From a virus: a stretch of DNA of 36,478 nt. Shown piece by piece: positions 1 through 29,825 of the stretch; position 1 is the stretch's first letter; each line of letters starts with the position of its first letter. The stretch is taken from positions 1-36,478 of IMG/VR virus record IMGVR_UViG_3300037516_000529; one strand, given 5' to 3'. Below the pieces are notes generated by a model, which was not told the DNA's origin, searched no databases, and saw only the letters and a program-made list of their open reading frames with translations. The translations under genes were made by a program, and so were the position numbers.

Positions 1-127
1 CCCCGATCATCGGCGAGGAGATCACCGAGAGCGAGGACGGGATGCAGGTTAAGCGGTCGGACATGCTCGGGCACCGGAAGCTCCAGATTGAGACCCGGCT
101 GAAGCTGCTCGCCAAGTGGGATCCGAA
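1..127. repeat. Terminal direct repeat, left copy
   Basis: The first 127 bases are identical to bases 36352-36478. An exact overlap of 127 is a common largest k-mer length in short-read assembly, so this is most simply the assembly overlap of a circular contig rather than a biological terminal repeat. The unique genome is then 36,351 bp. The small terminase gene continues in frame across the join, which supports circularity or circular permutation. Confidence 0.93.
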
Positions 128-275
128 ACGCTACGGCGAGCGCATGGCGCAGGAGATCAGCGGGCCGAACGGCGGGCCGGTGACCGTCGCTCCGGCCGTG
201 CAGCTCACACCCGACCAAGACGCCGCGCTCCGCCGGGTGATCGAGGACGCGCAGGAACGAGTTCGACGACCATGA
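1..275 (+). CDS. terS: Terminase small subunit, C-terminal part (gene crosses the contig join)
   Basis: This is the 3' part of the small terminase gene that starts at 36096. When the contig is closed at the 127-bp overlap the gene is 531 nt and encodes 176 residues. The part here carries the conserved segment HRKLQIETRLKLLAKWDPKRY, typical of Sf6-type small terminases, followed by a flexible Pro/Gly/Val-rich stretch and an Arg-rich end. The small subunit recognises the packaging site on phage DNA and recruits the large subunit. The gene ends in an ATGA overlap with the next gene at 272. An internal ATG at 42 could look like a start, but the upstream frame is open and conserved, so it is not needed. 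Confidence 0.85.
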   Translation, partial: PIIGEEITESEDGMQVKRSDMLGHRKLQIETRLKLLAKWDPKRYGERMAQEISGPNGGPVTVAPAVQLTPDQDAALRRVIEDAQERVRRP

Positions 276-598
276 CACCAACCATGACACCAACACCGAG
301 AACCGATGCCGCTGAGTTCCCGGCTCACCAAGCCACCCGATGCCACTACGGAGAGGACCCGCTGGTCGATGCCGACTTCGCACGCCAGCTAGAGCGCGAA
401 AACCAGACGTTCCGAGCCGCTCAGAAAGCGTGCGAAAACTGCGACGCGCCGCGCGTTGACCGGATCGCCGAACTGGAGCGCGAACTTGCCGTCTGGAAGC
501 ATGAGGTGGAGACGCTTCGAGATCAACTCAAGGCGGAACACGAGACCGCGGTCAGCCTGTTCATTGAGCTCCACGAGCTAAAGGAGAGGTTGAGATGA
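272..598 (+). CDS. Hypothetical protein, TPRTD/ARQLERE family
   Basis: This gene encodes 108 residues of unknown function between the two terminase genes. Its ATG overlaps the terS stop (ATGA); a second in-frame ATG at 284 is an alternative start. The protein has an N-terminal TPRTDA motif, an FARQLEREN motif, two cysteines in a CENC pair, and a C-terminal half rich in Glu, Leu and Lys that should form a coiled coil. The same TPRTD plus ARQLERE layout is seen in the gene at 21060, so they are probably paralogous. Proteins with this layout recur in phages, but I know of no assigned role. Its tight packing between terS and terL suggests late expression. Confidence 0.7.
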   Translation: MTPTMTPTPRTDAAEFPAHQATRCHYGEDPLVDADFARQLERENQTFRAAQKACENCDAPRVDRIAELERELAVWKHEVETLRDQLKAEHETAVSLFIELHELKERLR

Positions 599-4449: not shown

Positions 4450-4459
4450 ATTTGCAATG

Positions 4460-4487
4460 TTGACTATCCTGAGCAATTTACTAAGGT
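4460..4487 (+). promoter_or_regulatory. Possible promoter before the protease/capsid genes
   Basis: TTGACT at 4460-4465, a 16-bp gap and TAAGGT at 4482-4487 resemble the spacing and sequence of the four early-region promoters. It would give an almost leaderless mRNA for the start at 4496 and extra transcripts for protease and capsid. A related TTACTAAG string also lies before the portal gene near 1956-1963. The match is loose and the call is tentative. Confidence 0.3.
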
Positions 4488-4495
4488 TTCGCCAG

Positions 4496-5476
4496 ATGAC
4501 CGGCCTCACAGTCAACTCCGCGTTCCAATCCGAGCTCTCTGAAGCGGGCTCGATCGTGTTCCTGCCCGAAGGAACGCACGAGATCACCGCGAGCGTGGGC
4601 GGCAAGCCGAAGACGCTGACCGTGACGGTCGACGACCGGGTTCTTGCCGGATTCGCCGACGACCTCGCTCGCCGGATGGAGTCCAACGTCCGGCCCTTCG
4701 CCGGGTTCGATCACAAGCCGGGTGCCGCGTCGTTTATCCCGACCGCGTTCCGCTATGAGGCGGGCGTCGGCCTCATGCTCGACGTCGACTGGACCAGCGC
4801 CGGTCGCGCAGCCATCGAGGGCCGCGACTACTCCTATTTTTCCCCGACCTTCCTCGTCTCGAAAGACGGCATCCCAACGGGTCTCACGACTCGCGGGGAA
4901 ATCGGCAGCCTGGTCAACGACCCGGCCTTCGAGGAAATCCCGCGGATCGCCGCAGCTCACCAAGCAACAGAAGACCCCATGCAACACCTAGTTGAACTCG
5001 GGCTCGTGGAGGCGTCTTGCGCGCCCGATCAAGCTCTCGAAACCGCCAAGGCCGCGCTCGCTACCCTCCGGGAAGTCGCAGCGCAGGCCGAAGACGTCGA
5101 ACCTGCCAACATCGCCAGGAAATCCGCCGAGGACGAATTGGAGGAGATGAAGAAACGGAACGGCGAACTCGAAGCCGCCTACAAGTCGCTCAAGGACGAG
5201 ATGGCCGCGAAGGCATCGGCATCCGCCGACGCCGCCATCGAGGACGCTATCAAGGCCGGCCGGATCGCCCCGCAGGACGACGCGACGAAAGCATTCTGGC
5301 GCTCGTCCATCACCACCAACCCGGAAGCTGTGAAGGCGCTCAACGCCATCCCCGTCAACCCCGTGCTCTCTGGCAAAACGGTCCTCGCGGGCCGCACCGA
5401 AGAACCCCCTCAAGGCCAAGCTCTCACCGGCCTCGCCCGTGTTGAGGCCGCCTTCAAAGCTCAATCCCAATCCTAA
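4496..5476 (+). CDS. Prohead protease / scaffold, Mu gpI-like
   Basis: This protein probably cleaves head proteins and, through its C-terminal half, scaffolds capsid assembly. Of 326 residues, the N-terminal part holds the gpI-type protease signature: FAGFDHKPGAASFIP, then GRDYSYFSPTFL and GEIGSLVNDPAF. Roughly residues 190-260 are charged and heptad-like (coiled coil), as in scaffolds. An in-frame ATG at 4457 would add 13 residues (MLTILSNLLRFRQ). I prefer 4496 because the extra codons lie over a promoter-like sequence and do not resemble the family. The capsid gene follows 6 nt after its stop. Confidence 0.82.
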   Translation: MTGLTVNSAFQSELSEAGSIVFLPEGTHEITASVGGKPKTLTVTVDDRVLAGFADDLARRMESNVRPFAGFDHKPGAASFIPTAFRYEAGVGLMLDVDWTSAGRAAIEGRDYSYFSPTFLVSKDGIPTGLTTRGEIGSLVNDPAFEEIPRIAAAHQATEDPMQHLVELGLVEASCAPDQALETAKAALATLREVAAQAEDVEPANIARKSAEDELEEMKKRNGELEAAYKSLKDEMAAKASASADAAIEDAIKAGRIAPQDDATKAFWRSSITTNPEAVKALNAIPVNPVLSGKTVLAGRTEEPPQGQALTGLARVEAAFKAQSQS

Positions 5477-5482
5477 ACCATC

Positions 5483-6424
5483 ATGCCCAACAACTTGACC
5501 CTGCTTGACCTCGCCAAGCTGAACGGTGCCGACCCGATTGTCGGACTGATCGAGGAAGTCGCAACCGCTTCGCCCGAGGTGACCATCATCCCGGCGCGCA
5601 CGATCCGCGGCACCTCCTACAAGACGGTGATCCGCAACAGCCGCCCGGCTGTCAGTTTCCGCGCTGCCAACGAAGGCACCGACGCCACTAAGTCGAACTT
5701 CACCGAGCGCCTCGTCGAGTGCTTCATCCTCTCGGCCCGCGTCGAGGTGGACAAGGCCGTCGCCCGCGGCTACGAAGACGGCCCCGAAGCCATCCAGGCC
5801 ATCGAGGCTGCCGGCGTCATGCGTGCCGCACTCTCGACCGTTGGTTCCCAGACGATCTACGGCACCGCCGCGGGCGCGAAGGGCTTCTTTGGCCTTCAAC
5901 AGCTCATCGGCACCTTCGGCGACGAACTTGTCGTTGATGCAGGCGGCACCACTCTCGGCACCGGCTCCTCGGTGTATGCCATCAAGGCCGGCACCACCGG
6001 CGTGCAATACGTCTATGGCAACGGCACCAGCTTCGACCTCTCGGCCTTCCGCGAGGGCGACGCGGTGGACGCCAACTCGAAGCGTTATGCCGCGTTCATC
6101 GCGGACCTTACCGCGTGGATCGGCTTCCAGTGCGTCAACAAGTACGCCGTGGGGCGACTGAAAGACCTCACCGCCGCCGAAGCCGGCGCTCGTCTCACCG
6201 ACATCAAGATCGCCGAGCTTCTCAGCAAGTTCCCGGTCGGCGAGCGCCCGAGTCACCTGCTCATGTCCCGCCGCTCGGCCTATCAGCTGCAAATCAGCCG
6301 GACGATGACCGCCAGCACCAAGCAGGAGGCATTTACCGGCATCCTCCCGGGTGTCCCTACCGAGTCCTTCGGTATCCCCATCATCATCACCGACTCCATC
6401 GGTGACACCGAAACCCTCAGCTAA
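5483..6424 (+). CDS. Major capsid protein, GP7-type
   Basis: The 313-residue protein forms the capsid shell. It matches the GP7-like capsid family I know from phages with LTLADLAKLN-type starts: LTLLDLAKLNGADPIVGLIEE at the N terminus, IIPARTIRGTSYKT, FRAANEG, then EVDKAVA, a glycine-rich GTAAGAKGFFGLQQL segment, and near the C terminus LLMSRRSAYQLQ and PTESFGIPIIITDSI. Position directly after the protease/scaffold and before a small beta-rich protein fits. There is no strong Shine-Dalgarno before the ATG at 5483. High expression would be expected, and an intrinsic terminator follows two genes later. Confidence 0.88.
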   Translation: MPNNLTLLDLAKLNGADPIVGLIEEVATASPEVTIIPARTIRGTSYKTVIRNSRPAVSFRAANEGTDATKSNFTERLVECFILSARVEVDKAVARGYEDGPEAIQAIEAAGVMRAALSTVGSQTIYGTAAGAKGFFGLQQLIGTFGDELVVDAGGTTLGTGSSVYAIKAGTTGVQYVYGNGTSFDLSAFREGDAVDANSKRYAAFIADLTAWIGFQCVNKYAVGRLKDLTAAEAGARLTDIKIAELLSKFPVGERPSHLLMSRRSAYQLQISRTMTASTKQEAFTGILPGVPTESFGIPIIITDSIGDTETLS

Positions 6425-6433
6425 TCCACGATC

Positions 6434-6841
6434 ATGCCCTTTGAATTCAACCGCAACCAGCAGGACCAGAACTACGTCTCGACCGTCACGCTCCTCTCCG
6501 GTGGAGCGAACACCGCAGCCTTCGACCTCGAGCAGGCCGTTGGCGGTGACGTCGAACGCGTCGTCTTCGAGTTGGCAGGACCAGTCTTGAGCGGCACGCA
6601 ACTCACCGACACGAAGGTCGTCACCTACACGCTGCAAGACAGCGCAGATGGCACGACCTTCGCAGCCGTTGACCCAGCAATCACGACGACCCAGACCGGT
6701 GTCAGCACCTCTGGCGCTGCTGCCAAGACCGTCCGGTTCCGCGTCCCGGCCAACACTCGCCGGTATGTTCGCATCGCTCAGACCGCAAGCGGCACCCCTG
6801 GCACGCTCACCGCTGCCATGGTCGCTAGGCTGCTGTTCTGA
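6434..6841 (+). CDS. Putative capsid cement / decoration protein
   Basis: The 135-residue product follows the capsid gene by 9 nt. It is Thr/Ser/Ala/Val-rich, low in charge and should be all-beta, with an N-terminal FEFNRNQQDQNYVST and a C-terminal TRRYVRIAQTASGTPG segment that looks like a small jelly-roll or Ig-like domain. Small proteins in this position often trim or cement the capsid surface, as in BPP-1-like phages. I see no catalytic residues. The call rests on position and composition, so treat it as a structural protein of likely capsid-binding role. Confidence 0.5.
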   Translation: MPFEFNRNQQDQNYVSTVTLLSGGANTAAFDLEQAVGGDVERVVFELAGPVLSGTQLTDTKVVTYTLQDSADGTTFAAVDPAITTTQTGVSTSGAAAKTVRFRVPANTRRYVRIAQTASGTPGTLTAAMVARLLF

Positions 6842-28458: not shown

Positions 28459-28802
28459 TGAACGAAATGAACCGCCTGCGGGCTATAATGCTTGGCCTCT
28501 CGACTCCCGGCGTCCGGCTGTTTCGCAACAACTGCGGGGCGCTCAAGGACGCTGAGGGCCGACTCATCCGCTACGGGGTCGCTAACCCCGGCGGCTCCGA
28601 CCTGATCGGCTGGCGATCCGTGACCGTGACGCCCGACATGGTCGGCCAGAAGCTCGCGATCTTCCTCGCCATCGAGGTCAAGGGCGAGCGGGGCAAAGCG
28701 ACCGATGCCCAGCGGAACTTCATCGATCGGGTCCGGGCCGACGGCGGGCTTGCAGGCGTGGCGCGATCTGTGGAGGATGCTCTGGCTATCATCAACCAAT
28801 GA
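28458..28802 (+). CDS. VRR-NUC domain nuclease
   Basis: The 114-residue product is a standalone VRR-NUC nuclease, a PD-(D/E)XK subgroup. The pattern is VRLFRNNCGALKDAEG, then NPGGSDLIGWR (catalytic Asp), then AIFLAIEVKGERGKATDAQ (Glu-x-Lys pair), and VRADGGLAGVARSVEDAL. Such enzymes may act on branched DNA such as Holliday junctions. The start at TGATG overlaps the upstream stop, and its stop overlaps the methyltransferase start (ATGA at 28799). An internal ATG nine bases later is an alternative. Confidence 0.88.
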   Translation: MNEMNRLRAIMLGLSTPGVRLFRNNCGALKDAEGRLIRYGVANPGGSDLIGWRSVTVTPDMVGQKLAIFLAIEVKGERGKATDAQRNFIDRVRADGGLAGVARSVEDALAIINQ

Positions 28803-29818
28803 ACCAAAACGAACAATTACATGAGCTGGCACTTTTCGCAGGCGCTGGAGGCGGCATTCTCGGCGGCAAACTGCTCGGGTGGAAATGCGTCTGTGCCGTC
28901 GAGTTCGAGCCTGCCGCCCAGCGGATGCTCGCGGCCCGACAAGACGACGGATGCCTCGACCCCTTCCCCATCTGGGACGACGTTAGAACCTTCGACGGCA
29001 AACCATGGCGCGGACTTGTTGACGTGGTATCTGGAGGCTTCCCGTGCCAAGACATCTCAGCAGCCGGAAAAGGAGCGGGACTCGACGGCGAGCGAAGCGG
29101 CCTCTGGTCTGAAATGTCTCGGATCATTGGCGAGGTTCGACCTCGATACGTCCTCGTGGAGAACTCACCAGTTCTCACTTCTCGGGGACTTGGAACCGTT
29201 CTCGGGGACTTGGCCGCGATGGGGTATGATGCGAGATGGGGAGTGCTGGGAGCTGTCCATGCCGGAGCTCCTCACAAGCGGCAACGAATCTGGATCGTGG
29301 CCCACTCCTCACGGCTTCAGCCCGGACGGGCGGACCAATGGCCCGAGCGGGAACGAGCTGGGGCGGGCGGTCAACCGATCGATCCCCACACCGACCGCCT
29401 CCATGATGACGATGGCGGACATGGAGCAAGCGAAGTATGCCGGGAACGGCGGGAAGCGCCCGAGCTATCAGGACGCGAAGCAGTGGCCGACGCCAACGGC
29501 GGCTTGCGCGAACGGCGGACAGACCAGCCGGAGCGGGAAGCGCAAGGGCGAGCTACTGCTGGCGGGAGCCGTGAAGGCGTTCCCGACGCCCAAGGCGAGG
29601 GACTGGAAGGACACTGGGACGGTGCCGCCGTCGAGGGTGGCCGATCCGGGCAAGGACACGCTGGGCCAGCATGTGGCGCGCACGGAACCTGGTGGGAGTC
29701 TGAACCCGACGTGGGTCGAGTGGCTCATGGGGTGGCCGCTCGGGTGGACAGACTCCGCGCAATCGGCAACGGGCAAGTTCCGGCAGTGGTCCGCCTCGCA
29801 TGGAATCTCCTCCGATAG
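28799..29818 (+). CDS. C5-cytosine DNA methyltransferase
   Basis: The 339-residue protein methylates cytosine C5 in DNA. Visible motifs are FAGAGGG (residues 13-19, cofactor site), PCQDIS (82-87, catalytic Cys), ENSP (121-124), RQRIWIVA (161-168), and a C-terminal RLRAIGNGQVPAVV (motif X). The middle part (about 170-300), where the target-recognition domain should lie, is Gly/Glu/Arg-rich and low in order. The start overlaps the VRR-NUC stop. It probably protects phage DNA from restriction. The same DNA is open in the +1 frame and appears to encode another protein (28821-29825). Confidence 0.9.
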   Translation: MNQNEQLHELALFAGAGGGILGGKLLGWKCVCAVEFEPAAQRMLAARQDDGCLDPFPIWDDVRTFDGKPWRGLVDVVSGGFPCQDISAAGKGAGLDGERSGLWSEMSRIIGEVRPRYVLVENSPVLTSRGLGTVLGDLAAMGYDARWGVLGAVHAGAPHKRQRIWIVAHSSRLQPGRADQWPERERAGAGGQPIDPHTDRLHDDDGGHGASEVCRERREAPELSGREAVADANGGLRERRTDQPEREAQGRATAGGSREGVPDAQGEGLEGHWDGAAVEGGRSGQGHAGPACGAHGTWWESEPDVGRVAHGVAARVDRLRAIGNGQVPAVVRLAWNLLR

Positions 29819-29825
29819 ACCCTGA
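28821..29825 (+). CDS. Overlapping +1-frame gene, 'TWPRWG...WVEWLMGW' family
   Basis: This 334-codon frame covers nearly all of the methyltransferase gene in the +1 frame. It is not just open: it begins with HFSQALE and ANCSGGN and carries LLTWYLEASRAKTSQQPEK, SLARFDLDTSSWRT, FSGTWPRWGMMRDGE, several WPTPTA-type units, and NPTWVEWLMGWPLGWTD near the end. From memory these motifs, in this order, define a recurrent phage and metagenome protein of unknown function. Its C-terminal motif is exactly the +1 reading of the methyltransferase motif X region. Long shadow ORFs are common in this GC-rich genome, so length alone is no proof; the recognisable family content is the support. Confidence 0.55.
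   Translation: MSWHFSQALEAAFSAANCSGGNASVPSSSSLPPSGCSRPDKTTDASTPSPSGTTLEPSTANHGADLLTWYLEASRAKTSQQPEKERDSTASEAASGLKCLGSLARFDLDTSSWRTHQFSLLGDLEPFSGTWPRWGMMRDGECWELSMPELLTSGNESGSWPTPHGFSPDGRTNGPSGNELGRAVNRSIPTPTASMMTMADMEQAKYAGNGGKRPSYQDAKQWPTPTAACANGGQTSRSGKRKGELLLAGAVKAFPTPKARDWKDTGTVPPSRVADPGKDTLGQHVARTEPGGSLNPTWVEWLMGWPLGWTDSAQSATGKFRQWSASHGISSDRP

Follow-up and report, generated by a model that had tools for sequence, protein, structure and literature searches.

We identified a locus that very probably encodes a two-subunit C5-cytosine methyltransferase, with both subunits specified by the same DNA in two reading frames. The locus lies in a window of 36,478 bases, the whole stretch of viral DNA analyzed here (IMG/VR record IMGVR_UViG_3300037516_000529, positions 1-36,478). 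It contains two overlapping ORFs, alpha in frame 0 and beta in the +1 frame, whose coordinates and openness are exactly as an earlier sequence-only reading had claimed (Table 1). Comparisons with relatives establish, at the level of sequence, that each frame is genuine coding sequence maintained by selection, that the constraint alternates between them along the gene and that the beta start is conserved. Alpha appears to be the catalytic subunit, with motifs I-VIII and X around a seemingly unconstrained middle, and beta the subunit that carries motif IX and a presumed recognition domain. It is also probable that the locus exemplifies a wider arrangement. Both subunits would be encoded by one gene whose two frames are each used over its full length, with start codons that usually lie 4 nt apart; constraint would pass from frame 0 to +1 and back, with the other frame serving as filler. 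Such genes would be widespread in viruses and prophages, and swapped recognition cassettes would stay open in both frames.

Table 1. Features of the two-frame methyltransferase locus, in window coordinates.
Feature	Position	Strand	Basis
Alpha ORF (frame 0, 339 aa)	28799..29818	+	PF00145 5.9e-32, phrog_363 1.2e-71; M.HhaI model alignment Z 21, range 5..339
Beta ORF (+1 frame, 334 aa)	28821..29825	+	phrog_1008 1.4e-29; codon-phase and stop-depletion tests
Start region: alpha ATG 28799 (ATGA with upstream stop), beta ATG 28821	28799..28823	+	start conservation in relatives
Alpha motif I (ALFAGAGG)	28829..28852	+	frame 0 translation; invariant or nearly so in 86 relatives
Alpha motif IV, catalytic Cys (GGFPCQ)	29033..29050	+	frame 0 translation, conservation in relatives
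Doubly constrained segment: alpha motif VI (ENSP) to before VIII; beta LARFDLDTSSWRT...TWPRWGMMRDG	29127..29240	+	alpha synonymous choices frozen
Alpha motif VIII (KRQRIW)	29276..29293	+	frame 0 translation
Putative beta recognition region, WPTPTA-type repeats; +1 constrained, frame 0 open but unconstrained filler	29295..29699	+	mismatch rates 0.318/0.111/0.078
Beta motif IX (LNPTWVEWLMGWPLGWT)	29700..29750	+	invariant residues; IX-anchored diversity
Alpha motif X (GNGQVP)	29765..29782	+	constraint back in frame 0; terminal helices pack in alpha model

C5-methyltransferase motifs had been noted in 28799-29818, and profile searches bear this out. The PF00145 match in frame 0 covers only motifs I-VIII (residues 11-186), and phrog_363 matches along the entire length. 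The motif set of alpha (FAGAGGG, GGFPCQ, ENSP, R.R.W and GNGQVP) is conserved throughout in one chain. The +1 product had been said to recur as a family, and it is real as a sequence family: phrog_1008, labelled 'DNA methyltransferase' in PHROGs, aligns with residues 62-330 over profile positions 33-293 of 329 and is matched by all 123 beta relatives. Searches of the +1 product against Pfam and NCBIfam gave no match, and Pfam matched 0 of the 123 beta members.

The locus is preceded by an endonuclease-like gene (phrog_93), the stop of which overlaps the alpha start as ATGA (28799-28802), and is followed by a small ORF and then a DNA primase/helicase gene. Elsewhere in the window, an antisense ORF of 549 codons (4988-6637, minus strand) lies opposite a head maturation protease gene (4457-5476) and 5483-6424, and is probably a shadow of high G+C content.

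We collected 239 related loci by scanning viral contigs twice and bacterial and archaeal genomes once, and added further loci from phage, plasmid and E. coli records. In every locus where tblastn located both parts (166/166), the one with motif IX was in the +1 frame relative to the catalytic one. Profiles for the catalytic, recognition, IX and X parts placed the recognition region and motif IX in +1 and motif X in frame 0 in 230 of 253 loci. A phrog_1008 match was found in 10 of 199 genomes of Pseudomonas (the host genus of locus L184), all 10 without an internal stop, and in 0 of 14 control genomes. In an E. coli prophage (L254:1497-2258), alpha is labelled a pseudogene with an internal stop and the beta side still matches; this copy is possibly decaying.

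Codon phase reveals which frame is constrained in each part of the gene. Mismatch rates at alpha codon positions 1/2/3 were taken from independent viral gene pairs, each sequence used once. Over motifs I-VIII the rates are 0.110/0.061/0.264, and the third position exceeds the first in 55/55 pairs, the rhythm of a frame 0 gene. The recognition region has the +1 rhythm, with the third position above the first in only 1 of 43 pairs (rates in Table 1), as does the stretch from motif IX up to X (0.254/0.072/0.063; 1/49 pairs). At motif X the rhythm reverts to frame 0, as seen in diversity anchored on motif IX. The flip is replicated in bacterial loci (0.165/0.086/0.319 vs 0.439/0.129/0.115), and in 1338 of 1500 random pairs the better alignment of the recognition region is that of the +1 protein.

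Similar patterns are visible between the window and its nearest relative (L092). Across codons 0-99, 30 changed codons alter one residue in frame 0 but 29 in +1. Across two collinear blocks of the recognition region, 12/12 differences fall at +1 third positions, where they are silent, but they change 10 residues in frame 0; these blocks were picked as identical in +1, and the comparison thus illustrates the pattern rather than tests it. When the window and near relatives were aligned as DNA over the whole gene, the recognition region showed no clear phase signal, since this part of the gene is rearranged or swapped. In several viral loci (L111/L133/L134, L040/L042 and L012/L133) the catalytic halves reach 97% identity over half the gene, and the remainder gives no comparable match, as would be seen after an exchange of recognition cassettes. 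A cassette swapped in this way would need to be open in both frames.

Openness itself is far beyond expectation. Under synonymous permutation of frame 0, the +1 frame would be open in about 4 of 152 relatives; it is open in 146, and the third frame in none of the 152. Stop depletion was measured in 213 distinct loci with motif X in frame 0, with sequence-identical copies removed and the ORF left unbounded. By the same permutation, +1 stops over motifs I-VIII number 15 against 501 expected and frame-0 stops over the recognition region 6 against 691 expected, counts that are not independent events, as the loci share descent and some are near relatives. Six loci account for the +1 stops in the N-terminal half. 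The third frame of these 213 loci is not depleted of stops (1588 vs 1289 expected and 1019 vs 934 expected). Of these 213 loci, 207 have a frame 0 that is open throughout the recognition region; of four loci with motif X in +1, none does, and all four have acquired stops. This natural contrast implies that translation of alpha has to run on as far as motif X.

Synonymous choices offer a third line of evidence. Alpha codons 106-134, from motif VI to before motif VIII, overlap the conserved YD..SSWKT.Q.SLL..L..FS.TWPRWG of beta, and choices in this segment are nearly fixed: Val is GTG in 117/118 cases, Ala GCC in 109/109, Gly GGG in 125/125 and Asn AAC in 124/125. Each choice is the one that beta needs, and at every such site the codon of the window is that of the family as a whole. 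From these codon patterns, both frames are evidently constrained here. The proposal that conserved methyltransferase strings yield the +1 motifs one base over holds for only part of the gene; it fails for the recognition region and motif IX, where +1 is the constrained frame and frame 0 is itself the shadow.

These results bear on whether the +1 ORF merely shadows a conserved methyltransferase gene, with its family an annotation artefact. The window is high in G+C and has many shadow ORFs, and public records annotate one frame or the other inconsistently, as such an artefact would predict. This reading was rejected by the phase, stop and synonymous-site tests, and we regard it as having almost no chance of being correct. 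The codon phase inverts, synonymous codons are frozen, and stops are depleted with third-frame controls; the +1 frame is moreover open in 35/35 genes of moderate G+C (0.48-0.55), against 0.2 expected. Of the two options that the sequence-only reading left standing, a widespread annotation artefact is contradicted by these tests, and a protein truly made from the same DNA is strongly supported by the signatures of selection in +1. Frequent stops and a lack of excess constraint in that frame, the pattern expected of shadows alone, were looked for, and the opposite was found.

Several observations concern where beta begins. First, the alpha and beta starts are 4 nt apart in most relatives, mostly as NTG-A-ATG, and 22 nt apart in the window; the alpha NTG directly precedes the beta start in 106/125 cases. 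Second, among 126 genes the beta start is ATG in 113 and GTG in 9; in the remaining 4, an ATG lies 3-5 codons upstream. Third, the alpha codon just before Glu-Leu, which overlies the beta start, is AAT in 105/105 genes in which it encodes Asn, and AAT, CAT or CGT at this codon keeps a +1 ATG or GTG in 122/126 genes. Finally, this choice runs against codon bias: in genes above 60% G+C this alpha codon is AAT 38 times and AAC never, against 87 AAC and 24 AAT elsewhere. The ORF and conserved start indicate a predicted beta of about 334 aa from 28821, with its exact N-terminus inferred, because, apart from openness, there is little sign of protein-level constraint in +1 over the first 100 residues of beta.

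It is unlikely that beta is instead produced solely from a start inside alpha, which would make it a short nested subunit resembling that of M.EcoHK31I. Protein-level constraint on beta does begin near residue 100, and in Paenibacillus phages the +1 ORF starts inside alpha and is annotated as an internal gene. Most loci are nevertheless open in +1 from the 5' ATG (the 15 stops against 501 expected), and this ATG is kept against codon bias (AAT 38, AAC 0 above 60% G+C). The Paenibacillus Fernvirus loci with the internal beta start (L003, L257, L258 and L259) also differ in the C-terminal region of alpha (VLDGLSDWLDR). One +1 motif IX peptide sits over two different frame 0 peptides, one in Fernvirus and another in other loci.

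Relatives with other domain arrangements were also detected. In six split relatives (L181, L196, L214, L245, L002 and L011), alpha stops soon past motif VIII, and the recognition region, IX and X lie in one +1 ORF. In two fused relatives (L236 and L252), motifs I-VIII, the recognition region, IX and X are all in one frame. One of the fused genes, from an actinobacterial MAG (L236:869-3058), has about 730 codons and many WPTPT repeats and is a candidate for the ancestral fused form.

The fused relatives, together with the alternation of functional domains from frame 0 to +1 to 0 along the gene, are what would be expected if a programmed frameshift from frame 0 to +1 near motif VIII yielded one fused enzyme. 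We consider this very unlikely. A fused product would require neither an open +1 frame over motifs I-VIII nor an open frame 0 over the recognition region, yet both are nearly free of stops, which disfavors a frameshift. Motif X would also require a second shift back, and the +1 start codon is conserved. Two polypeptides from two starts remain our preferred reading.

The content of beta suggests its role. LNPxWVEWLMGWPxGWT is the most conserved stretch of beta and occupies the motif IX position; it resembles motif IX as found in M.HhaI. Within NP..EWLMG, the residues N, P, E, W, L, M and G are invariant across 121 relatives. The +1 frame (beta, phrog_1008) thus carries motif IX (LNPTWVEWLMGWP) and the presumed target-recognition domain. 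Alpha alone is without a conserved recognition domain or motif IX, its frame 0 middle being unconstrained and modelled with low confidence.

Predicted structures are consistent with this division. In the alpha model, residues 1-170 are mostly confident, about 180-318 are of low confidence and the last ~15 are again confident. The model aligns with M.HhaI at Z 21.0 (2.4 Å over 180 residues), C-terminus included, and its terminal helices pack. Modelled alone, beta reached a pLDDT of 60, which is low confidence; a PDB structure search with this low-confidence model gave no match, and a PDB sequence search gave no match of note. Such a poor solo model would be unsurprising if beta folds on its partner. 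We use the term 'recognition domain' for beta because of motif IX, its position and the fused relatives, rather than from a solved fold.

We regard it as highly improbable that beta is a separate protein of unrelated function that arose de novo by overprinting. The lack of a Pfam or PDB match would fit such an origin. Against it, beta has the motif-IX-like core LNPxWVEWLMGWP, the two fused relatives have its domain in a single frame together with motifs I-VIII and X, and alpha is without a conserved recognition region and motif IX. The suggestion that a family of its own had overprinted a methyltransferase is not supported, as the +1 product looks like a part of the methyltransferase, namely motif IX and the recognition region.

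In the mechanism that we propose, alpha would supply the SAM-binding and catalytic core (motifs I-VIII), a long unconstrained linker and motif X. Beta, translated from its own start beside that of alpha, would supply the target-recognition domain and motif IX, and the two would assemble into one enzyme. This enzyme may methylate the phage's own DNA, probably evading host restriction. We infer from the comparative data that two proteins are made from the two 5' starts and form a heterodimer, and that this would be an active methyltransferase with an anti-restriction role.

If this is correct, many genes annotated as 'DNA cytosine methyltransferase' or 'hypothetical protein' are half-annotated two-subunit enzymes, and alpha cloned alone would be an enzyme without its recognition domain. 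The locus would also be a long, widely conserved same-strand overlap in which each product has a clear role, and the series of fused, split, nested and fully two-framed genes would allow the origin of overlapping genes to be tested.

Existing annotation captures the arrangement unevenly. Records for six loci (L006 and L010, both phage records, and L004, L005, L003 and L008) annotate alpha only, beta only or both; in beta-only records beta is a hypothetical protein and alpha is missing, and the choice looks arbitrary. Both frames are annotated in a Xanthomonas phage record. The frame chosen by gene callers decides which half is seen, and family libraries therefore hold the two halves as separate entries. 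The frame 0 and +1 products of the window match phrog_363 and phrog_1008, respectively, but these are separate PHROGs families whose names do not mention two frames of one gene.

We did not find the two-frame arrangement in phages described in the literature, which is weak evidence as it covers open-access papers only; it is not described in PMC9409062 (which matches phrog_10089 only), PMC3711429, PMC5009743 or PMC6070908. What appears to be new, judging from the loci compared, is a whole gene used in both frames from adjacent starts, present in viruses, prophages and plasmids and mostly unannotated as such.

Among phage genes, the Paenibacillus Fernvirus methyltransferase (phage Diva gp49/gp50) is similar in having an internal +1 ORF with WPTPAAQD and LNPDWVECLMGFPIGWTD, which the annotators of the Diva record marked 'g49 internal gene'. 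It differs in that beta starts internally, the G+C content is 47% and the C-terminal region of alpha is another one. The catalytic domains of the monomeric enzymes M.HhaI and M.HaeIII match alpha by sequence and fold, but in these enzymes a single chain also includes the recognition domain and motif IX.

Two-subunit enzymes offer closer parallels. M.EcoHK31I and M.AquI target YGGCCR and CYCGRG, respectively. A 1995 paper on M.EcoHK31I reportedly placed the small-subunit gene inside that of the large subunit, in another frame, and the beta of this enzyme is said to be short (about 176 aa) and to start inside alpha. This nesting resembles that of the second ORF found here within alpha, in +1 at 166/166 loci. 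The beta ORF described here differs in spanning nearly the full gene, with its start beside that of alpha.

M.EcoHK31I and M.AquI each consist of two polypeptides (PMC3404938). In M.AquI, catalytic motifs I-VIII are in one polypeptide and the distal recognition region and motif IX are in the other (PMC3404938). Our system shares this split between catalytic and recognition/IX parts, and the I-VIII / IX-X division recurs in the six split relatives. The window differs in that motif X is in alpha (frame 0) and the two genes share the same DNA; the M.AquI-type placement of both IX and X in the small subunit is absent from the window and present in the split relatives. In M.EcoHK31I the large subunit carries motifs I-VIII and X and the small subunit motif IX, and the predicted recognition domain was assigned to the larger subunit (PMC3404938). 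By description rather than by sequence, M.EcoHK31I is thus the apparent closest precedent, with the motifs divided alike: I-VIII and X in alpha and IX in a second polypeptide, as in 230/253 of our loci. It differs from our system in that the constraint observed here puts the recognition region in beta.
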